Below, one piece after another: positions 2,248-61,628 of a stretch of DNA of 64,000 bases. The DNA lies in assembly GCA_947632085.1 (NCBI GenBank), contig CANRNY010000011.1, positions 1-64,000 of the forward strand. Direction: 5' to 3'. A model generated the notes under the pieces. That model was not told where the DNA came from, ran no database searches, and saw nothing but the letters and a program-made list of their open reading frames with translations. A program made the position numbers and the translations under genes. Source of the stretch: an uncultured Bacilli bacterium (GTDB lineage Bacteria; Bacillota_I; Bacilli_A; RF39; UBA660). Each line of letters begins with the position of its first letter. Position 1 is the first letter of the stretch.

Positions 2248-5200
2248 CTATTTAAATGCCAATCTAAAGTATTGTGTTTTATCTTTTTCCCAAAGAGTAT
2301 CAACATTAGCTATCTCAATATAATCTATCCAACGACATGTTCCACTATCAATCTTAGATCTTAAATTATTTTTAGCAGTATTTGCATCATTATTTTTAAC
2401 TATAGCACAAACTTCTAAATTCTTAGATGGATTACTTAAGTTATCTGAACTAGCAGCGTTAGTAGAGCCAAGTAACGAATCGAAGTTCTCTAGGAATAAG
2501 CTTCCATAGTGACCAAAGTTTGCAACACCATCATTCATCTGGCGAATTTCTTCATCGTCACCTTCGTTAGCAAACCACCTACAACTATTTGGATTACTAC
2601 ATGCACCAAATGGTAAAATTGAAGCTCTTCCATAAACTTTTAAATTATCAAAGTTAACTTCATAACCATACATATCATTGTAATTTCTTATTGCTGCTAA
2701 GGTTGAAGGTTTTAATTCAAATGAATATTCAGGAGTAACATCATCAGTATTAAGATAAACTTTCTCACCAAGCTCTTCGATTTCTTTTAATGCTACTAAA
2801 CCTTTATTAGTTTCTAATTTATTACCAGCATAGTAGAAAGCACCATTACCGGTCCAATTGCTACCAAGATCTCTATTAGTAGAACCATCCAAATCAGATA
2901 ATGCAACCGTTGTCGTATTAAATCCTAATACCCCTTTTGTCTTAGTTGTATCTATATCTTTATTAAAATCATAATTATACCCAGTATCTTCTACAAATTT
3001 CTGCGCTGTTGGTATATCAACCGAAGTATAAGAAACAATTGGATCACCACAACATAAGCAAAGGTTTTCAACAACTTCATAGAAGCACGTTCGTTGATTT
3101 TGAGGTATTACCGCCGAAGCATCACCCATAATACGACCTAATCGTCCATCAGTATAACTACCAATCTGCGTAAATTCATACGTATATTGATATAAATTTC
3201 GCGCTGTTGTCATACTAACTGGGAATATATTCAGATTACCAGATATTACATTTTCATCATCTTTATAACCAACAAATACAGACCACTTATTTTTTTCTTC
3301 TTGAGAACGATTAGTATAAGAAGGGCCACCACGTTTTGCAGCATTATTCCATGCCTCTTCTAAAGTTTCACCATGTTCTCTAGTATCATTAGGACCAGTA
3401 TACCAAATACCTTTATTTCGATAGAAACTACTATTTTTTATCGACGCCTCAATATAATGAGCATCAAAGTAGTATATAGTATAAGAATAACAGCTTCCAC
3501 CTATCCAATCAGGAACAGACGTCGCACCATTTATCATAACTACATCACCAGTTTTACCATCAGTCGAAGCATGTGGTCCAGTATTTTCAGCAGTTATAGA
3601 ACATAGTGTAATTTCTTTTCCAACAACATGACTATTTTCACTATCTTTTTCAATTGACAATGCTTTATTACAAATTCCATCATCATTACTACAAGCATTA
3701 AATCCCTTAACAGGTTTCATACTACTATCCTTACCATATGTTTTAACTAATGTATCATCTGTCCATACACCATCTGAATCATAGTATTCGAAGTTTAATA
3801 AGTTTCTTGATAATTCAGCATCAGTAACCGGATCTGCCGGTTCACATTCACTATCATCAATAGCTAATAAACATTTATCTGAATAACCAATTTCAACATC
3901 TTTTACCGAAGTATTAGTATAGTTCTTGTATCCAGCAGGTTTACCTTTGTTTTTAAAGACAATATCATTTAATGTATCATACTCAATCAGAACGTTATCA
4001 TCTTGTAATATAGTCATATAGACATCTTCATCATAAGTATAAGAAACAAATGGTTCAAACATAGTTAAAATCTGAACAAACGATCTGCTACTACCCATAA
4101 ACATATCATAAGTTGTTGGATTGTTTTTCTTATCATTACTATCATCAGACCCGTTATATAATTCGAAGTGTTGACAATTCCAGAACTGTTCATATTTTGA
4201 AATAATAGTATTAAAGTCATTACTCATCGCGCCACGATAGCCATTTAAGGCTGATTCAGCTTTATCCATCATATCCTTCTGTAATTTTTCAAAAGCTTCA
4301 GATTTGTTAGAGTCAGTATCACTTGAATAACATCCACCTTCTGATGTCTCAGGAGTAGTTGGCTTTTTTTCACCAACAGTTCCAGTACCAGTAGGCGCAG
4401 CAGGGAAGGAACAAGCAGTTCCCTTTTGAGTATCCATAGAATACTGTGGAGTAGTATTTCCTCCAAGTGGATCTTGTGTACCATCAGCTGAAGTATTTAC
4501 ATAAAATTTTTGATATGTACCCTCTGTATCATCTGGTCCAGTAAATTTATGATTTAAAGCCAATTCATAATGACCATATTCAGTATTAGTAGAAGAACAT
4601 ACCCAACCATAAGTAGTTTCATTAGCTTCAGTATCAGGATCATCTTCCTTAGTTACTTTATATTCATATTCTAAACAACCACTATCAACAACATAAGTAA
4701 ATGTATCAGAACTAGAATCTTGAGCTTTGACATCAGAATAAGAGTGAGATGAATTACTATAGTTATTATATTGATTAACTAGATCAACGGAAGCCTTAAC
4801 TAAATCCTTCATTAATAAATCATAATCTAAATATGTCGTATAACAAGTACGTCCACCTTCAATAAAGATATCATTATCATGATTTTGAAAATATGTACCA
4901 GCTAAAACGGCATTTTTACCAACGAAGTTACCAAAAGCACTCATAGTTATCTTCCAATCCTCACGACAACTTACTTGGCAATATTCATTAGTATTATAAG
5001 CTGAAACCATTATTGAATTACCACGATCATCTTGTTTTTGATAAGAAGACACATCAGCTCCAGGAGTTCTATAATCACTTGCATAATTTCCTTTAACTTT
5101 TACAACACAAGTACCTATAGCTTCTGAATATTTCTTAGCTTCTCCTGTATAATAAGCACCTTCTTTTATTTCGTATTCATCAACGGATTTATTATCCTCT

Positions 5201-8085
5201 GGATTATAACTACATACATTTGACATAGTTGATACAGAACATTTGCCGTTACATACATTAGAAATTACATAAGAATATGTTTCTTCGTCTAAAACTTCGC
5301 TACAACAACCAGCAGCTTTAAATAAACCTGGATTAAATGAGCTCGCACAACTAGACTCAGAAGTACATGTTTTATAATCTAAGCTCTTAATACTACTACA
5401 AATAGAACCTTTATCACCATCTATATTAAAGTAGATATAAACCTCCCTAGGTTCACTTAAATCCATTACCAACATTCTTTGTTTTGAAGCTGTACCAGCC
5501 TCTGGATTACCAATACGAACACTTGAGTAATCAATACCACCACCATATTTTAAGACTAAACTATATTCTTTTTCTTCTTCTCTATTTTTTGGTATTTCTA
5601 CAGTAGTAGCATTAGTAACTTCAATTTTAACTTCATAATCATATACATCTTGTTTTGGTGAAGTTGTAGATTCTTCACCATTTTTAACTAAACTAACTAA
5701 AGTTCCTTTAACACCAGTTTTATTCAAATATACATAATTTGAAGTCTTACCATCCATTTTTAATTCTGTTCTTTGTGGTAAAGTAAATTTACCTTTATAA
5801 ACTATTTCATAACTGTTCTCGCCAGTAACAGTTGTTTTTTTACTATCGATGGTTCTTTGGAAAGCACCACCTTCTTCAAATTTATAATTTTTATAATTAG
5901 TAAACATATCATACAAATAGCCAAGCACAGTACTATCAGTACTACTATTACCAGTGTCTATACCAAAATCATTTACTGCAGCAATAACTTTATTACGATA
6001 TTCATTATAATTAGAATCACTAGGACTAGGAACATGGCCATCAGTATCCACATAATATTCTTTATAAATTTCAGCTAATTTCTCAGCAAGTTTTCTATAT
6101 TGGACATAGTGTGAATAATATTTAGTATCACTTTGTTCAGTAACTCCACTATAACCAGTTATAAGAGCAACCGTACGAATAGCAACGTGTGCTGCAATTC
6201 TAACTGAATTATTAGGTTGAGTAAATGCTGATGTAGTCGTTTTAGTATTTAATAAATCAATTATTACTCCAATCATTTTACCTAAATCAGAAGATTGACT
6301 AACACGTTCTTCTATATTGTATTTTTCCCCATTAGGTCCAGCACGACCAGGATCCATACATAACGCAAAATAATTTTTTCCATCTCCACATGTAGATACA
6401 GCATCATAGTTATTACTATTTAATCCTTTAGATATATTAATATCTGATAATGCATCACCAGAAAATTTAATAATTGCATAATCACACATTTGATGTTCAA
6501 AATCATTTAAAGCATAATCGTTATTTACACCAGATACAATTCTAGCATCAACATCTATCGCAAATGATCCATTTGAAGCCTCTGAATTATTTGACGCAGG
6601 TTTTACTTGAAATTTATATACTACATTTCTTACTGAATTATCTGCATCTTGAATACTAACATTTACATCTATATACTTACCAGAATCAGTGGCTTTTAAA
6701 CCACTAACTAAGCATTGCTTATTTTGATACTTAACTTTTAAATTTTCATTTGAAGCCGCAGAGCATGTTTTCATATTAGGAACAGCTAAGAAGCTATTTT
6801 GATTTTCATAAACAGATTTAAAACGATCAACTTCTGTTACATCAGTTTCATATTTAGCATAATAAGTTGCATAATCATTAGTTGGTACACTAGTTCCAGG
6901 TTTTATTAAAGAACCTTCATTATTTTTAACCCATCCTAAGAACTTTTTAGCTTTTCCAAAAGGAGTATCTTTTTGTTTTACATTAGGTAAAGTAAAGTTC
7001 CCTTCACTTGCACAATAATAAACACCAGCAGATGTTTCCTTACATTGACTAGCACTAACTAAATCAGATGAAACATTATCAAAAACTAATTGAACTCCTG
7101 CTTTATAACTATAACATGCAACATAACTACCACCATCCATAGCAGCTACACTTCCATTAACAGCAGCAGGTGCACATTGACCTATTTTTTGATAATCTCT
7201 ATTTTCATAAGCTTCATCAGGTACTCTAACCCAACCTTCAAACTTTAAAAGTCCGCTAGTTTTATCAACGCTACCTCCTCTTTCGCTGTCTTTTGCTGTA
7301 CATGATGGTAAATTAACATTACCAGTAACAATACTTTCCCAATAACTATAACCAGGATAATTTTGGGCTTTCCATTGTGAAGCATTAATATCACATGTGC
7401 CATATCCACCTGGATAAATTCTAATACCACCTGTATAACTTATATTAAAATAAATATAAATATCTTTTTCTTTTTTCTCACCGCCATCATCATAGCTGAT
7501 TTTAAATTTAGCAGATGAATAAACTGTTTCATGGACATTTAACGCCGCTTCAGCAGGTTCAACTGAACAAAGTGCTCCGACTTTACATCCATCCCAGTTT
7601 AAGTATTGAGCATTACGTTTATCTGAAATACTTTTAATGCTAACATTAGAAAGACTTAATTGAGATTGAATTCGATTAATAATGTCAACTCTTAAATCAT
7701 CTTTAACTGTACCATTAATTACCACAGTCATAGAACTTGGAGATATTAAATTGTAATAAAAAGTAAACGTTCTTTGACCACTTTCATCTTCAAATCCGAC
7801 TATTCCACGACCAGTCCAAGTACAAACTATTTTATCAGTACCAGACTTTTTAGGTTCTTTATTAAACGCAATATAATAATTACCATTTTTTTGCGTTAAT
7901 GAAAGAGCTTGTAACTCACCTTGAGCCTTACAACTCAATCCTAAATAATCCTTGGAATCCATTACTACTGGACTACCTTTAAATTCTGGGCTAATTACTT
8001 TATCGTCAGCAAAAGCTGTACCGATAACAGTTATAAAAGAAAATATTATAAATAGAATATATTTTTTCAAATTACTAATCTTCAT
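2248..8085 (-). CDS. giant secreted cysteine-rich adhesin (1945 aa) of a Tad-like locus
   Basis: The largest gene in the window. It has a signal peptide (residues 1-26, cleavage near GTAFA-DD). Two segments near residues 285 and 380 (FEGWVRVPDE; KKFLGWVKNNEG) resemble Listeria-Bacteroides (InlB B-type) repeats. Near residue 578, ALCMDPGRAGPNG resembles the cysteine segment of thioester/TQXA adhesin domains. The middle (about 890-1010) and C-terminal parts are dense in cysteines, suggesting disulfides. There is no C-terminal membrane helix or sortase signal, so it is probably released or held by the pilus machinery encoded downstream. Its start overlaps the stop of the preceding gene (TAATG), implying translational coupling. 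The role as a pilus tip or secreted adhesin is inferred from size, signal peptide and operon. Confidence 0.8.
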   Translation of the reverse strand: MKISNLKKYILFIIFSFITVIGTAFADDKVISPEFKGSPVVMDSKDYLGLSCKAQGELQALSLTQKNGNYYIAFNKEPKKSGTDKIVCTWTGRGIVGFEDESGQRTFTFYYNLISPSSMTVVINGTVKDDLRVDIINRIQSQLSLSNVSIKSISDKRNAQYLNWDGCKVGALCSVEPAEAALNVHETVYSSAKFKISYDDGGEKKEKDIYIYFNISYTGGIRIYPGGYGTCDINASQWKAQNYPGYSYWESIVTGNVNLPSCTAKDSERGGSVDKTSGLLKFEGWVRVPDEAYENRDYQKIGQCAPAAVNGSVAAMDGGSYVACYSYKAGVQLVFDNVSSDLVSASQCKETSAGVYYCASEGNFTLPNVKQKDTPFGKAKKFLGWVKNNEGSLIKPGTSVPTNDYATYYAKYETDVTEVDRFKSVYENQNSFLAVPNMKTCSAASNENLKVKYQNKQCLVSGLKATDSGKYIDVNVSIQDADNSVRNVVYKFQVKPASNNSEASNGSFAIDVDARIVSGVNNDYALNDFEHQMCDYAIIKFSGDALSDINISKGLNSNNYDAVSTCGDGKNYFALCMDPGRAGPNGEKYNIEERVSQSSDLGKMIGVIIDLLNTKTTTSAFTQPNNSVRIAAHVAIRTVALITGYSGVTEQSDTKYYSHYVQYRKLAEKLAEIYKEYYVDTDGHVPSPSDSNYNEYRNKVIAAVNDFGIDTGNSSTDSTVLGYLYDMFTNYKNYKFEEGGAFQRTIDSKKTTVTGENSYEIVYKGKFTLPQRTELKMDGKTSNYVYLNKTGVKGTLVSLVKNGEESTTSPKQDVYDYEVKIEVTNATTVEIPKNREEEKEYSLVLKYGGGIDYSSVRIGNPEAGTASKQRMLVMDLSEPREVYIYFNIDGDKGSICSSIKSLDYKTCTSESSCASSFNPGLFKAAGCCSEVLDEETYSYVISNVCNGKCSVSTMSNVCSYNPEDNKSVDEYEIKEGAYYTGEAKKYSEAIGTCVVKVKGNYASDYRTPGADVSSYQKQDDRGNSIMVSAYNTNEYCQVSCREDWKITMSAFGNFVGKNAVLAGTYFQNHDNDIFIEGGRTCYTTYLDYDLLMKDLVKASVDLVNQYNNYSNSSHSYSDVKAQDSSSDTFTYVVDSGCLEYEYKVTKEDDPDTEANETTYGWVCSSTNTEYGHYELALNHKFTGPDDTEGTYQKFYVNTSADGTQDPLGGNTTPQYSMDTQKGTACSFPAAPTGTGTVGEKKPTTPETSEGGCYSSDTDSNKSEAFEKLQKDMMDKAESALNGYRGAMSNDFNTIISKYEQFWNCQHFELYNGSDDSNDKKNNPTTYDMFMGSSRSFVQILTMFEPFVSYTYDEDVYMTILQDDNVLIEYDTLNDIVFKNKGKPAGYKNYTNTSVKDVEIGYSDKCLLAIDDSECEPADPVTDAELSRNLLNFEYYDSDGVWTDDTLVKTYGKDSSMKPVKGFNACSNDDGICNKALSIEKDSENSHVVGKEITLCSITAENTGPHASTDGKTGDVVMINGATSVPDWIGGSCYSYTIYYFDAHYIEASIKNSSFYRNKGIWYTGPNDTREHGETLEEAWNNAAKRGGPSYTNRSQEEKNKWSVFVGYKDDENVISGNLNIFPVSMTTARNLYQYTYEFTQIGSYTDGRLGRIMGDASAVIPQNQRTCFYEVVENLCLCCGDPIVSYTSVDIPTAQKFVEDTGYNYDFNKDIDTTKTKGVLGFNTTTVALSDLDGSTNRDLGSNWTGNGAFYYAGNKLETNKGLVALKEIEELGEKVYLNTDDVTPEYSFELKPSTLAAIRNYNDMYGYEVNFDNLKVYGRASILPFGACSNPNSCRWFANEGDDEEIRQMNDGVANFGHYGSLFLENFDSLLGSTNAASSDNLSNPSKNLEVCAIVKNNDANTAKNNLRSKIDSGTCRWIDYIEIANVDTLWEKDKTQYFRLAFK

Positions 8086-15941: not shown

Positions 15942-15969
15942 ATTATAACATTTAATTTTTATTTGTCAA
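15942..15969 (-). promoter_or_regulatory. sigma-A promoter of tyrS
   Basis: On the minus strand TTGACA (15964-15969), 16-base spacer, TATAAT (15942-15947). The -35 overlaps the last codons of the upstream 657-aa surface protein gene. Confidence 0.75.
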
Positions 15970-17932
15970 ATATGCCACTTATCTTTTCGCCAATTCCTCT
16001 AAAGAACGCACCTATAACAGCGAAATTAAAGTAAATTCTATATCCTAATAATCTTAATATTAAGTATATTAAAATTATAACTATAATAATTATTATTATG
16101 ATAATTAAGAATGTATTAGTACCTTTTTCAACACCATCAATAGATAATGAATAAGTAACAGTATCATTTTCATCTTCAGAAGTACAAATTATTTTAATAA
16201 CTGAACCTTGTGTTAAATCTTGATTACCTTCTTCACGACAAGTAGCTTTTGGATCAACAGTTGCATAATTTAATTTCAACTCCGTATCACCTTTATGTAA
16301 AGTTATACCATAATCATATTTATTACTTTCAAAACCAATATCATCATAATCTTCAATTGATAGTGAAGATAAATCAGCAACTGTACCTTCTTCAACTTGA
16401 GCTTGTCTTGTAACATTTAATGTATAAACATTAGAGAAATTAGTACATTCCTTACTCTTTACTGTTATCTTAACTTCTCTAGGAACACCAACCTCTAAGT
16501 TTTCAGCACCTTCAACTACTACAGAGTCCCCTTCCTCATTAACATATGCATTAACAATTAAATCTGTAACTGCAAAAGGAACTTTAATATCATCATAAGT
16601 AAATACTCGTGAATCGAAAGACATAATTTGATCTATCGCTACACCTTCTCTATCAGAAGATAAATTAATTTCTTTTAGTAAAGCTAAAGAATTAATATCT
16701 GTTGTACATCTTGTAGGTGTCGTTTCTCTTACTACTGTAACATTATATACATTAGTTGCCCCTTTTTGACTAACTACCTTAATATATATCTTATTAGTAC
16801 CTAATTGTAAATCATAAGTTTTAGGTCCAAAGCCATTAGCAAATGTTGATTTATTATCAGTAAGTGTTGCACCAATTGTAATTTGTGAAACATTATTTGC
16901 AACATTAACTGTATAATTAGTATTACCACTTGTAAATGCCGGAGATAAGGTTCCTTTACTAACTGTTAAATTTGATAAAGTATTAACGTTACTACGATTA
17001 TCAGCTCTAGTAACAACTATTTTATAAGTTACCGTTTTATTTGCTTTATTTTTTACTTTAATAGCAATAGTATTTGAACCATAATTAAGTTTTACAGATC
17101 TTGGTCCATAACCAGAAACAAATGAACTACCACTTTTAGCTTTAGCAGATACATTAATAGAAGAAACATTTGCTGCTACGGATACTTTATATGATTTTGT
17201 TCCAGATTTAAATGAAGGTGATAATGAACCTGAATTAACAGATAATGACGATAATGCTGGAGCAGCAACAGTAGTACTACTACCTCCACCTGAGCTACTA
17301 GAACCACCAGAACTACTAGAACTCTTTACACATTTACCTGAGTAAACTTGCTTACAATAACGTTTATTAAAAGCCCCCATTGATAAGGATTTACATGTAT
17401 CAGTTGTTGGACTTCCGTTATTATCTGCTTGCATTTTATAACCACTTGCACATTCAACAAAGTTATTATTAGCATTTATATTGGCTCTTGATGGTGTAAT
17501 TGTTCTAACATTATTTTTTACTGAAACAATAGCACATCTTTGAACTTGGAAAGTAGAAGTAACACCAGTTTTTAATTGATCTGTACATGAACCTGTTACT
17601 TTAACAGCACCACTTGCATAAGCACCACCAGTAAGGGAATTATAAGCCCAAAAATAATAAGTATTATTTTTTAGACTTATTTTACCTTGATTAGCAGTTT
17701 TAGTAGCCATTTTCGTATCTAAAATAGGAACAGCCGAATTATAATTGTTCTTAGTATTGTAAAAAAATTTCAAACTACTAGCAGTATATTTACCAGAATA
17801 AGTTATAGTCGCTAAATCACCACTAACAGATACTTTAATACCATCTGCTTTAACTACAACAAGCGGCAAAAGAACTAATGCTAATATATATATTAAAAAG
17901 TTTACTTTTAATTTACTAATAATTCTATTCAT
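15959..17932 (-). CDS. membrane-anchored surface protein with cadherin-like beta-sandwich repeats
   Basis: A 657-aa exported protein with a signal peptide (residues 1-29, ending VVKADG). It has an N-terminal beta domain, a Ser/Gly linker (about 200-218) and tandem cadherin-like repeats of the PF12733 type. The two clearest begin LSSLSVNSGSLSPSF (about 225) and LSNLTVSKGTLSPAF (about 317). More divergent repeats follow, then a strongly hydrophobic helix of nearly pure Ile/Leu (about 606-628), then a short amphipathic cytoplasmic tail. There is no sortase motif; it is held by the membrane helix. Likely role is in adhesion or envelope scaffolding. It is monocistronic. Confidence 0.78.
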   Translation of the reverse strand: MNRIISKLKVNFLIYILALVLLPLVVVKADGIKVSVSGDLATITYSGKYTASSLKFFYNTKNNYNSAVPILDTKMATKTANQGKISLKNNTYYFWAYNSLTGGAYASGAVKVTGSCTDQLKTGVTSTFQVQRCAIVSVKNNVRTITPSRANINANNNFVECASGYKMQADNNGSPTTDTCKSLSMGAFNKRYCKQVYSGKCVKSSSSSGGSSSSGGGSSTTVAAPALSSLSVNSGSLSPSFKSGTKSYKVSVAANVSSINVSAKAKSGSSFVSGYGPRSVKLNYGSNTIAIKVKNKANKTVTYKIVVTRADNRSNVNTLSNLTVSKGTLSPAFTSGNTNYTVNVANNVSQITIGATLTDNKSTFANGFGPKTYDLQLGTNKIYIKVVSQKGATNVYNVTVVRETTPTRCTTDINSLALLKEINLSSDREGVAIDQIMSFDSRVFTYDDIKVPFAVTDLIVNAYVNEEGDSVVVEGAENLEVGVPREVKITVKSKECTNFSNVYTLNVTRQAQVEEGTVADLSSLSIEDYDDIGFESNKYDYGITLHKGDTELKLNYATVDPKATCREEGNQDLTQGSVIKIICTSEDENDTVTYSLSIDGVEKGTNTFLIIIIIIIIVIILIYLILRLLGYRIYFNFAVIGAFFRGIGEKISGIFDK

Positions 17933-45257: not shown

Positions 45258-48200
45258 TTAATACTCTAATCTCTTTTTATTAAAATATATTAATGATAAA
45301 AGAGAAATAAAACTAACAACTACTACTCCTATAGACATAAATGTACTAGTATTAGGATTTACAACAATATCTTGCTTATCTTCTACAATTTTATTTCTAG
45401 AATTTACATATGTAACTTTCGAAACACCAGTAGAAGGAACCATTCCAATATTTCCTGTTGCTTTTGTTACATAACCATCTTGGTTTTCTTCTTTTTCATT
45501 AATTGTATAAATAATACCTGATGGTAATTCTGTTGCTTTTTTACTTTCACCATCTTTTAAAGTAAATGTTGCTACACCATTAATAAAATCCATATCACCA
45601 TATTTACCATTTACTGTCTTATCATCTAATGATACTTCAAATGCGAAATTTCTATCTTTTTCTCCATCATTACCAGTAACCATTTTATTAACAGATATTT
45701 CTCCTTTAAATCCTTCCTTCCAATTCATTGCTGTCCAAGTAGTAGTTGAACCAGGCTCACCACTTAAATTATCATCAGGATTACCAACTATCGTATTTCC
45801 ATCCTCGTTATTATTCCATTGTGGAACTTTCCAACCAGCTTGCATTTGTTCTGAAGTATATAATTCTTCAATTACATAATGATAACCAGCTGGTATTCCA
45901 TAAAATAATATTTCCTGTTTTGGACTCAAGGTAAATGTTATTTTACCATTTACACTTGTAATAGTACTTGACTCAGATTCACTCTCTTCTGTACTATTTT
46001 CTACATTTCCAAAGCCACTACCTAATTTATAATTTACTGTTCCGACATATGGATTTCCTTTTGTATCTGTTAAAGTTAAGGTAAAGTAGAATAACTCATT
46101 TGCATCATATACAAGACCTTCTGTAACATCTTTCTTAACTGTTAATGATACCAATCCTGTATTTCGAGCTAACTGCTCATTAGATACCTGAAATTGTTTT
46201 TGTGTTTGTGTAGTAGAATCATAATAAAGATCTTTCTTACCTACATCAAACCATTCTACTTTCCAATTATCATTAGGTAAGTTCTCTTCAACATAATAAA
46301 TTACATCATTACAATAATAAGTCCAACAATAATTTCTTTTATATCCAGTTCCAACTTCTTTTCTATTCCAATCATCACGATAATAATAATTTGCTAAATC
46401 ACTACAACCTGAAATATTATAATCAGTTCCTAAACATCTATCACTTGGTGTAAAGATAATTACTTCATCTTTAGCTAATTTAAAGTTTATAAGATGTCCT
46501 TGTTTTCCATAATATTCAGAATTAGAATTTTGTACTTTACCAACTTGAGCTTGTGCTAATAATATTGAACCTTTTTTACTTTTAGGATTTAATTCATCAG
46601 GACTATCTGTACCATTAACAACTCTACCATAAACTGTATTGCCTTTAGTATTAATAATTTCATAATCTACATAAGGAACAAATTTATTATCTAAACCTAA
46701 ATCTAAATAAATATTAAAATCAAATAGCATTCCTTCTTCAGTTTCAGTACCTTCTGAAACTTCCTTAGATATTATTATTGGATCACTACCAGTAACACGC
46801 CCATTAGTGCCAATCGCAGCACCTCCACCTGCAGCTGAAGTTTCATTATACATAATAAACACTGTTGCATCTGATAAAGCTAATTGTTTATCTCCACTAG
46901 ATGGATCAGCATTTAATTCTGTATTAATATTTGCAATTTTTTCTGTTGTTTCTGCAGTATTATTATCTTCAAGACTTTCTTCATTAATATTATTTTCATT
47001 AATATTATTATAGAAAACTGAATCAGGTGCTTGACCTTCCCAATTAAAGTTTCCACCGCCAATCATTGAATCAGATAAAACTAATTTAGCACCTTCTCTA
47101 GTAGCTACAGAAACATCTGCTTCTTTTTTACTAGAAATCTCATTATCAAATATTGCAAAATTTGCAAGTGATAAATTAATATCAGATGTTGGGCAACCAG
47201 CTATTGCTACACCATATTTATCAACTGCAACAGGTTTAATTGCTTCTTCACCAGTATCATTAACTTTATTATCAGAAATAACAGTTTTTCCTAAAATTAA
47301 ATTTCCATCTTCTTCAACCATAATACCGCCAGCACCAAAGTTAGATTTATATGTTGTTGGTGTTGCATCACACTTATTATGAGTTATATATCCAGCATCA
47401 ATTTGAATTGTACCTTCATCCCAAACAAACATTCCGCCACCTTGATGATGAGATAGATTATATTCGACCTTACCACTTTTCATATTAAACTGTGTTTCTT
47501 TACCACTTACATAAACTCCGCCACCATAATCTGCTTCACTATAAGATACTGTACTATCATCAAAATTAACTACTGCACCACCAAAAGCTACAATTGAACC
47601 ACCCCATGACATATATTTTTCTTTATTATTTATTGCCGTATTATTTGAGAATTTCGTTTTACTAATATTAACAGCACCACCATTAGATGCAATTGCACCT
47701 CCAGCTATTGTTTCTGCAGTACCTTCAGCTTTATTATTTTCAAAATCACAATTAGTTATATTAACTGTACCATTATTTAAATTATAAATTGCGCCTCCAT
47801 TTATATTAGTATTTAACGTAGTTTCATTTTGTAAAGCCCTATTATTGCTAATATTAGCGTTTGAAATATTTAATGTTCCACCTTCGTTAACTATTGCACC
47901 ACCATATAAAGATGCAGTATTATCAATAATACTTCCACCAGTTATTTCAATAGTTCCATTATAATTATAAATTGCGCCACCTTCGCCGCCCATAATAGCA
48001 TTATTATTTTTTAAAGTTCCACCTTCCATATAAAAACTGGAACCTTTATCAAGATAAATTGCTGCTCCATATGATCTAAAATCATAACGAGTAATTATGT
48101 TATCAGCAATTTCACCACCATACATTTTCAAAGTAGAATCGCCAACTAAACTAACTCCACTTCCATAATAAGATGAACCATTATGATAATAATAATAATT

Positions 48201-48734
48201 ATTTCTAATAATTGCATTTTCTCCTATAAATGCTTTACCAGAGTTTAATCCTAATATACAACCATTAGCTTGTATATTTTTATTTTTACCACCATCAAGA
48301 ATAATATTTTCTAAAACAAGTGATCCTTTATTTACCACTATCATATTTCCTAAATATGAATCACCACGTACTATGGTATATTGATTATCACCCTCAGAAA
48401 CTAATTTCGTTGGAACGGTAACTTGAAGTTCTTCTGTTACATCAATATTTGAAGATAAGTAAATTGTACCTCCCGTTATTAAAGCTTCCTTTAATTCTTC
48501 CAACGAATCTATTCCATATATACCATCTTCAGAAGTAATACCTGCTTCCTTTGTAATTGCTTCACTTTTTTCAGCTTTTGTTATTTCTGCTAAATGTTTT
48601 TCATTATAATTAGCAAAGTGTGTTTTTGCTAATTCAAACATTGAAAAAGAAAAAAGTGAAATCAAACAAATAACAAACATAGGTATTAATAGTTTGCTAA
48701 TTTTATTTCTTTTTAAAATTCTCTTATTTTTCAT
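45258..48734 (-). CDS. sortase-anchored beta-helix adhesin (1158 aa)
   Basis: A large cell-wall protein. It has a signal peptide or anchor at residues 1-37 (ISKLLIPMFVICLISLFSFSMFE). Residues about 130-520 form a right-handed beta-helix of repeated GGAIYN/NISNN turns, like polymorphic outer-membrane and pectate-lyase-type adhesins. Residues about 870-1010 and 1030-1115 resemble Cna-B/Spy0128-type isopeptide domains (VNKMVTGNDGEKDRNFAFEV). The C-terminal sorting signal is NPNTS (about 1127), then a membrane helix and KKRLEY. NPxT[NS] signals are read by class B sortases, and one is encoded at 60054. The promoter carries a poly-G tract and direct repeats flank the gene. Confidence 0.9.
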   Translation of the reverse strand: MKNKRILKRNKISKLLIPMFVICLISLFSFSMFELAKTHFANYNEKHLAEITKAEKSEAITKEAGITSEDGIYGIDSLEELKEALITGGTIYLSSNIDVTEELQVTVPTKLVSEGDNQYTIVRGDSYLGNMIVVNKGSLVLENIILDGGKNKNIQANGCILGLNSGKAFIGENAIIRNNYYYYHNGSSYYGSGVSLVGDSTLKMYGGEIADNIITRYDFRSYGAAIYLDKGSSFYMEGGTLKNNNAIMGGEGGAIYNYNGTIEITGGSIIDNTASLYGGAIVNEGGTLNISNANISNNRALQNETTLNTNINGGAIYNLNNGTVNITNCDFENNKAEGTAETIAGGAIASNGGAVNISKTKFSNNTAINNKEKYMSWGGSIVAFGGAVVNFDDSTVSYSEADYGGGVYVSGKETQFNMKSGKVEYNLSHHQGGGMFVWDEGTIQIDAGYITHNKCDATPTTYKSNFGAGGIMVEEDGNLILGKTVISDNKVNDTGEEAIKPVAVDKYGVAIAGCPTSDINLSLANFAIFDNEISSKKEADVSVATREGAKLVLSDSMIGGGNFNWEGQAPDSVFYNNINENNINEESLEDNNTAETTEKIANINTELNADPSSGDKQLALSDATVFIMYNETSAAGGGAAIGTNGRVTGSDPIIISKEVSEGTETEEGMLFDFNIYLDLGLDNKFVPYVDYEIINTKGNTVYGRVVNGTDSPDELNPKSKKGSILLAQAQVGKVQNSNSEYYGKQGHLINFKLAKDEVIIFTPSDRCLGTDYNISGCSDLANYYYRDDWNRKEVGTGYKRNYCWTYYCNDVIYYVEENLPNDNWKVEWFDVGKKDLYYDSTTQTQKQFQVSNEQLARNTGLVSLTVKKDVTEGLVYDANELFYFTLTLTDTKGNPYVGTVNYKLGSGFGNVENSTEESESESSTITSVNGKITFTLSPKQEILFYGIPAGYHYVIEELYTSEQMQAGWKVPQWNNNEDGNTIVGNPDDNLSGEPGSTTTWTAMNWKEGFKGEISVNKMVTGNDGEKDRNFAFEVSLDDKTVNGKYGDMDFINGVATFTLKDGESKKATELPSGIIYTINEKEENQDGYVTKATGNIGMVPSTGVSKVTYVNSRNKIVEDKQDIVVNPNTSTFMSIGVVVVSFISLLSLIYFNKKRLEY

Positions 48735-48763: not shown

Positions 48764-48794
48764 AGTATACCCCCCCCCGGTCAATATTTGTCAA
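48764..48794 (-). promoter_or_regulatory. adhesin promoter with a nine-G homopolymer in its spacer
   Basis: On the minus strand TTGACA (48789-48794) and TATACT (48764-48769) flank a 19-base spacer that contains nine consecutive G (48770-48778). Length change in the tract would alter spacing and so transcription: a typical phase-variable promoter. Confidence 0.8.
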
Positions 48795-48851
48795 CCTGTT
48801 AATAAACTTTTTTCGTTATATCAATGATTATTCTTATTAATTTATTCACAC

Positions 48852-48888
48852 AAAAAAAAGATAGTTATTCACTATCCTTTTCATGTAT
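48852..48888. repeat. 37-bp direct repeat, copy B (rbfA 3' end and terminator)
   Basis: Identical to 45213-45249. It covers the last eight or so codons of rbfA and its terminator (GATAGT-TATTC-ACTATC then an A8 run on the plus strand). Confidence 0.9.
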
Positions 48889-59984: not shown

Positions 59985-59998
59985 TTTTTTTTGAAAAA

Positions 59999-60026
59999 TT
60001 TACATTTTATGTTATTATTATATATA
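59999..60026 (+). promoter_or_regulatory. promoter of the sortase gene
   Basis: TTTACA (59999-60004), 16 bases, TATATA (60021-60026). Confidence 0.45.
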
Positions 60027-60053
60027 GTAAAAGATAAACTGGAGATGAGTACG

Positions 60054-61628
60054 ATGAAAAAAATAACAATTCAAATTCAAAATAATTCCCTTATTTTTAA
60101 GTACCGTACTAATAAACCCGTTTCTGTAAACTTATTAAATACTAACGTTATTTCCAATAACGAATTAGTCTTTAGTGATGAATACTTAAAAGAAAATACT
60201 AAAATAGTTAGCCTTTTTCTCGCTGATTTAGCTAAAATAAGAGAGATAAATGAAATTAAAGTAAGTAGTATTGAAATTGCTTTACTAATTATTGACATTA
60301 TTGCTAAATTAAATACAATCACTAGTCTTGTTATTACAGAAGATGAAGTTATCTCTTATGAACTATGTGATAAAATAACTAAACTTAAAAATATAAAGAA
60401 AATAAATTGTTATAGTATTCCTCAATTCTTAATTGAATTATTAGATAAAAACGATATAACTGTTGAATCACGTAATGAAGTATTATTTACTAGTAACTTT
60501 ATGTCAGAAAATAATCTTACTTCATTTTCTAAAATATACTATAAAACTAATATTAGAATTCCTAATGTCTTAACAGTCGATGATTTAAAAGATATTGAAA
60601 CTTTCTTTAGTATTAATAAATATTTAAAAGTCATTCATTTTGATAAATATTCTGAAGAAAATATTTTAAATGTTGTTAATCTTATCAAGAAGCTTAAGAA
60701 GAAAAACTTATCTATTGAATTACATGATGATATTGATGATGAAAATTGTATTATTAGATTAAGAAATATTAATAAAGATTTAAAGCGTAAAAATAAATCT
60801 AAAATATCATTAATCTACTCAGAAGATTATATTGAAAAAAATTATTTACAACAAATCATTTTCACAACTCTTAAAATATGTGCTACTATTATCTTCTTAA
60901 TTATTACTTCTGTTCTTGGTTATATTTTTTATAACAATTATAATTCTGAATTAAAAGTAGATAAAATTAAAGATAATATAAATGAAACGATTGCTGAAGA
61001 AACAACTAAAAACATTGAAGAAGTAAATAATTCTTATTTCATCCCTGGTTCTTATGATACTCTTTTAAAAATAAATAAAGATACAGTCGGTTGGTTAATT
61101 GTTCCAGGCACAAAAATTGACTATCCTATCGTTAAGGGCACAGATAATAGTAATTACTTAGAAAACAATTTCTATAATGAACCTGATTTTAATGGCTGGC
61201 TATTTATGGATTATCGTAACAATGATAAAGAATTAGATGATAATACTATTATTTTTGGTCATAATCGTTTCTCAAGTGGTGTTATGTTTGGTACTCTTCA
61301 AAAACTTCGTAAAAAATCTTTCTTTGAAAAAGAAGAAAATAACTACATAACATTTAATACTATGGAACACGGTTATAAATGGCGTGTCTTCTCAGTTTAT
61401 AGTATTAACGTTACTAGTGATTATCTATATAATTCTTTCTTAGAAGATAATGAAAGACAAAAATTCTTTGATAAACTAAAGAAAAGAAGTCAAATAAAAT
61501 TTGATGTTGATGTAACTAGTAAAGATAAAATTCTTACTTTATCAACTTGTTTAAGTACTAATAATCGTTTAGTAGTTCATGCTGTATTGGTTGAAGAAAC
61601 AACTCTTAAAGAAGATATAACTACTTAA
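60054..61628 (+). CDS. class B sortase with a large cytoplasmic N-terminal domain
   Basis: A 524-aa protein. Residues about 1-260 are cytoplasmic, alpha/beta and leucine-rich, with no known domain. A membrane helix follows (about 266-292, ICATIIFLIITSVLGYIFY), then the sortase domain (about 330-515). Catalytic parts are IIFGHNRFSSGVMFGTL (His near 403), TLSTCLSTNNRLVVH (Cys near 499, Arg about seven later). The insertion-rich layout and TLSTC motif fit class B, which attaches NPxT[NS/G] proteins. ATG at 60054 follows CTGGAG. A typical SrtB has about 240 residues, so the head is an extra module. Confidence 0.88.
   Translation: MKKITIQIQNNSLIFKYRTNKPVSVNLLNTNVISNNELVFSDEYLKENTKIVSLFLADLAKIREINEIKVSSIEIALLIIDIIAKLNTITSLVITEDEVISYELCDKITKLKNIKKINCYSIPQFLIELLDKNDITVESRNEVLFTSNFMSENNLTSFSKIYYKTNIRIPNVLTVDDLKDIETFFSINKYLKVIHFDKYSEENILNVVNLIKKLKKKNLSIELHDDIDDENCIIRLRNINKDLKRKNKSKISLIYSEDYIEKNYLQQIIFTTLKICATIIFLIITSVLGYIFYNNYNSELKVDKIKDNINETIAEETTKNIEEVNNSYFIPGSYDTLLKINKDTVGWLIVPGTKIDYPIVKGTDNSNYLENNFYNEPDFNGWLFMDYRNNDKELDDNTIIFGHNRFSSGVMFGTLQKLRKKSFFEKEENNYITFNTMEHGYKWRVFSVYSINVTSDYLYNSFLEDNERQKFFDKLKKRSQIKFDVDVTSKDKILTLSTCLSTNNRLVVHAVLVEETTLKEDITT

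Follow-up and report, generated by a model that had tools for sequence, protein, structure and literature searches.

The window, a 64,000-nt stretch of DNA from an uncultured Bacilli bacterium, contains a gene for a pilin-like surface protein preceded by a promoter whose spacer ends in a run of nine G. The features of the locus, together with a sortase gene elsewhere in the window, are:

45258..48734, minus strand: gene of a 1158-aa pilin-like surface protein, the gene proposed to be switched (domain matches, sorting signal, homology)
48764..48769, minus strand: -10 box TATACT (sequence)
48770..48778, minus strand: G9 tract abutting the -10 box, the proposed slippage switch (sequence)
48779..48788, minus strand: fixed part of the spacer, AATATTGACC, 10 nt (sequence)
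48789..48794, minus strand: -35 box TTGACA (sequence)
48843..48882, minus strand: terminator-like hairpin and T run, 3' of rbfA (-12.7 kcal/mol, z -4.7)
59991..61628, plus strand: sortase gene, 545 aa, a possible anchoring enzyme (match above cut-off)

Read directly from the sequence, the minus strand carries CAGG-TTGACA-AATATTGACC-GGGGGGGGG-TATACT. The earlier note had described a TTGACA box, a 19-base spacer with nine G and a TATACT box, and all three are present as claimed. The 19-nt spacer (48788-48770) is composed of 10 nt and the G9, and the promoter is followed by an AGAGG-type ribosome site and then an ATG at 48734. A porA-type phase-variable promoter was taken to have a homopolymer between the -35 and -10 boxes of a recognisable promoter, to control surface or envelope genes, and to vary in tract length while its flanks stay constant. 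The first of these criteria is met by the window promoter. The genes upstream, beyond the hairpin, are rbfA-infB-nusA; the hairpin was missed by a simple terminator scan, which requires 3 G-C pairs. Since the hairpin and T run lie between these genes and the surface-protein gene, the latter is most likely its own transcription unit, dependent on the G9 promoter, and read-through from rbfA is unlikely to be its main source of transcription.

The 1158-aa protein starts with a hydrophobic N-terminal export signal, followed by a long Gly/Asn-rich repeat region. It has two DUF7601 matches, C-terminal DUF7601/pilin-like domains, and a C-terminal sorting signal of the form NPNTS-hydrophobic-KKR; towards the C-terminus it is similar to pilin backbone and ancillary pilin proteins of solved structure (best E 1.4e-12). 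Four sortase genes in the genome score above the cut-off, one of them inside the window. The marks of an LPxTG-like substrate, namely an export signal, a PxT-type motif, a hydrophobic stretch, a positive tail and a sortase in the genome, are thus all met. The sorting signal, DUF7601, the pilin homology and the four sortases support the description of the product as sortase-anchored, and its identity as such a surface protein is well supported; anchoring itself was not shown. The adhesin role, that is, a binding function, is an inference and was not shown either. Elsewhere on the minus strand of the window, a 1945-aa ORF (2248-8085) has no Pfam match, nor has the next ORF (250 aa), and a 657-aa protein with cadherin-like beta-sandwich domains and no G tract (15959-17932) is probably another surface protein.

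The G9 is the sole G or C run of at least 7 in the window (three overlapping 7-mers of one run; 0.27 matches expected), and the second-longest runs are C5 and G4. The statement that no other run is this long therefore holds within the window; it fails genome-wide. In the source genome (1.71 Mb in 36 contigs, a draft metagenome-type assembly with an estimated contamination of 6.9%), 22 G runs of at least 8 were observed, while about 1.5 were expected under a first-order model using the dinucleotide composition of the window. Eighteen of the 22 lie in a sigmaA-type promoter spacer, directly against a -10-like hexamer. Their -35 box is a correctly spaced TTGACA or TTGACT in 14 and of TTGC type in 4, the latter forming a tandem cluster on contig C3; one additional TTGACA copy has merely G5 and a spacing of 15. 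Apart from a few exceptions, the tract is G8 or G9. The non-G part of the spacer measures 9 or 10 nt in 15/15 TTGAC-type copies, whose spacings are 18 (n=10), 19 (n=4, the window's included) and 15 (n=1). The probability of a TTGAC plus TAnnnT context at a random site is 0.0003, and this value and the excess of runs rule out a chance homopolymer. Loss of MutS does not account for the many tracts, because MutS is present in the genome; mismatch repair thus has no obvious defect, which counts somewhat against switching. The C3 cluster (C3:80462-85353) encodes four related surface proteins of 316-323 aa, all with G8 promoters; the row also holds a fifth gene, of another kind, with a G5.

The pattern TTGACN-N8-13-G7-TAnnnT was found in 43/395 genomes of the class, at 118 places (a hand count from the match table). 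When reversed, it was found in 0 of the 395 class genomes, and when its gap was lengthened by 8, it was found in 2/395, one of which was a doubled TTGAC before a normal copy. Since the reversed pattern is absent and the shifted one nearly absent, the enrichment is for promoter spacing, and composition alone is ruled out. A stricter pattern applied to 84,980 species genomes gave at least 118 stretches; those listed come from Bacilli, Clostridia, Saccharibacteria, Selenomonadaceae, Streptobacillus, Streptococcus, Spirochaetes and others, many of them gut genomes. Near relatives with poly-G promoters are G003, G004, G007 and G012, and the remaining ten genomes in the genus have no poly-G promoter of this kind. 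No match to the promoter pattern was found in 2.9 million viral contigs, and a phage origin was rejected, as neither promoter nor protein matched there. These results also bear on whether the tract is a neutral homopolymer or an artefact of assembly, for which the draft nature and estimated contamination of the source assembly leave some room. The arrangement, however, recurs in dozens of independent assemblies, isolates among them, it is specific to position and gene class, and it is missing from the viral contigs. Being already contradicted by these controls, this explanation deserves next to no credence.

Some of these genomes have the arrangement in rows or families. A rabbit-gut Bacilli assembly (G416) has 42 poly-G promoters, most of which precede members of one family (about 40) of small membrane-anchored proteins. 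A tandem row of six related large surface-protein genes (1138-1261 aa where read whole), each with a poly-G promoter, is present in G417:C4, and in G392:C6 seven related surface proteins are encoded in tandem, each behind a poly-G promoter with G8 or G9. In G416, G007, G012, G261 and other drafts, poly-G promoters often lie no more than about 100 bp from a contig end; at least 16/42 of the G416 tracts and both G007 tracts do so, which looks as though the assembly had been interrupted at these sites. This position could stem from length polymorphism, or simply from repeated promoter sequence.

Counting tract lengths in related genomes had been suggested as a check on switching, and lengths do vary, both between paralogues within a genome and between sister species. 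In G416, 25 promoters with the exact flank TTGACAATACCACCCT have G9 (12), G10 (11) or G11 (2). In the other tabulated genomes, 38/74 within-genome pairs with an identical -35 box and spacer differ in tract length. Three row members of G417 with a common flank have G8, G9 and G10, and six paralogues in G012 have 6, 7, 8, 9, 10 and 11 uninterrupted Gs. One orthologue pair, with proteins 90% identical, has G8 in the source genome (G000) and G9 in G004. The third criterion, a variable tract with constant flanks, is therefore met between paralogues and sister species; no second allele was available for the window locus itself, for which the relatives gave domain-level matches only and no orthologue that could be compared. 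All tract lengths were taken from draft genomes and may contain sequencing errors. The tract also outlasts divergence around it: the orthologues of an O-antigen-ligase operon (71% identical protein) have G8 in both genomes, although their other spacer bases no longer match. On the other side, some orthologous promoters of related species (G380/G308/G302) have tracts of equal length. Such retained lengths, and the fact that the tract always abuts the -10 box and is G8 or G9 in the source genome with few exceptions, would suit a tract that never switches and serves, always in the same way, as a promoter element or regulator site. This is very unlikely, given the range of 5 to 13 G across the tabulated promoters, the differing lengths at identical flanks, and the occurrence of the feature in unrelated lineages with different flanks. 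As far as sequence comparison can tell, the pattern is what would be expected of a tract that mutates fast and is nevertheless under selection.

The spacing of the promoters indicates how a change in tract length might act. Promoters of the source genome without a G run have a spacer peak at 17 (n=24), compared to 16 (n=10) and 18 (n=6), and poly-G promoters identified by the identical rule have spacers of 18 (n=9) or 19 (n=4); the count included promoters with at most one mismatch in the examined regions of the genome. The argument that a 17-base spacer would be optimal thus stands for the source organism. The tracts, then, hold their promoters one or two bases off the ordinary spacing, where a single slip matters most. 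Data from Treponema agree: Tp0126 performs best at a -35/-10 distance of 17, and for tprE/G/J the permissive tracts are those of 8 G or fewer (PMC7864442). Which length is fully ON is unproven, as most copies in the source genome are at 18, and the poly-G itself may move the optimum towards 18. It is also conceivable that the tract slips, but that its length acts by DNA shape or a bound regulator and not mainly by the -35/-10 spacing. The duplex geometry of poly-G differs from that of ordinary B-DNA, which counts for this possibility, as does the position of the poly-G promoters at 18-19 rather than 17. Such a mode of action has been suggested for opc of Neisseria and tprL of Treponema. The poly-G of tprL overlaps the -10 region, excluding a spacing effect there (PMC7864442). 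The present tract, in contrast, lies strictly between a near-consensus -35 and -10 at sigmaA spacing, the signal is lost when the spacing is lengthened by 8, and no second conserved motif was seen beyond the boxes. We therefore regard action by shape or regulator as unlikely, though less so than a fixed element, and spacing as the preferred mode.

In the source genome, poly-G promoters stand before genes of sortase-type surface proteins that carry PxTxD-like signals, of an SPFH/zinc-ribbon protein and of a DUF5684 membrane protein, before a Wzy/O-antigen-ligase-like gene that has a surface-protein gene behind it, and before two genes whose products show neither a Pfam match nor an export signal. 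Several large sortase substrates of the genome have no tract. A secreted or anchored-type N-terminus was found in 11/16 driven genes (69%) compared to 63/223 ORFs (28%) from regions around the tracts (P=0.0015). In a species-wide sample, the values were 46/63 driven genes (73%) and 94/396 neighbouring ORFs (24%; P=6e-14). N-termini were classified by a crude hydrophobicity rule, identical for driven genes and background. The second criterion, control of surface or envelope genes, is thereby met. Homopolymer switching in promoters is commonly accompanied by intragenic frame switching, and two G8 tracts in the source genome are likely translational switches: one at C9:70014, inside an envelope-type membrane gene that is now out of frame and whose downstream frame is open for about 500 residues, and one at C9:50735, inside a membrane/envelope-type gene and in frame. 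A G9 at C13:43577 lies out of frame inside an acyltransferase-like membrane gene, which may be switching or decaying; because another stop follows downstream, it was not retained as a clean frame switch.

Promoter-spacer phase variation, the proposal of the earlier note, remains the best reading of what was observed: the architecture of 18 promoters, their enrichment in the class with its dependence on spacing, the length differences at conserved flanks, and the bias towards surface genes. We consider it highly probable that the G9 is a slipped-strand phase-variation switch of its promoter, one of about 18 independent ones in the genome. During replication, the poly-G run would gain or lose single Gs by slipped-strand mispairing, and each such change would alter the -35/-10 spacing, now 19 nt, and hence initiation by sigmaA RNA polymerase at the surface gene. 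A shorter tract, giving a spacing of 17-18 nt, is predicted to yield more transcript, and a spacing of 19 or more to yield less. With the same device turning about 18 transcription units up or down at random, among them pilin-like and other sortase substrates, the O-antigen-ligase operon and the SPFH/zinc-ribbon protein, each cell is expected to display a surface-protein combination of its own. That slippage is the cause, that the changes are reversible and that they affect transcription is inferred; there are no RNA, read-level or within-species data, and the start site is unmapped.

Similar devices are known in other bacteria. In Mycoplasma hyorhinis, each member of the paralogous vlp surface-protein family has its own promoter-spacer homopolymer, which creates combinatorial surfaces. 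The vlp tract is poly-A, whereas the tract here is poly-G and occurs on many unrelated genes as well as in paralogue arrays. In porA of Neisseria meningitidis, a poly-G lies between -35 and -10, and one G more or less changes transcription of a surface protein (PMC3899988, PMC7864442). The spacer arrangement is shared, but porA is one gene of a proteobacterium. Here, about 18 such promoters exist in one genome, a relative has up to 42, and the bacteria are uncultured gut inhabitants of Gram-positive type. Treponema pallidum likewise has poly-G in or near the promoters of surface proteins (Tp0126 and tprE, G, J, L; PMC7864442); those are spirochaete outer-membrane proteins, and whereas the tprL tract overlaps the -10, the tract here fills the spacer strictly up to it. 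Bifidobacterium breve, also a gut bacterium, has G-tract switches of sortase-dependent pili, with a spread of lengths revealed by deep sequencing, and the same study notes that other tracts lie in promoter spacers (PMC9187656). Its pilus tracts lie within coding sequence and switch the frame, in contrast to the present spacer tracts, which are expected to change transcript level.

The mechanism is thus known in principle from porA and Treponema, and its scale and spread in uncultured gut bacteria look new. No earlier description of a poly-G promoter set spanning a genome was found for these bacteria, most subscription papers being outside the search. As far as could be found, the novelty lies in one genome having an entire set of them, in a lineage without a previous record of such switches, and in other genomes with rows or families of dozens. 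On balance, we think it probable that whole banks of poly-G sigmaA promoters, each switching independently, operate in uncultured gut Bacilli and in many other gut bacteria, and that they include tandem arrays or families in which 6 to about 40 paralogous surface proteins have a switch each. If so, combinatorial surface display would reach a scale that only a few pathogens have shown to date, through a simple and recurrently evolved promoter design. Promoter-tract phase variation would then extend from a few pathogens to many uncultured gut bacteria, and its strict, scannable signature would predict which surface proteins, sugar genes and arrays vary within a clone. Such clonal heterogeneity would matter for host immunity, for phage sensitivity and for the tracking of strains.
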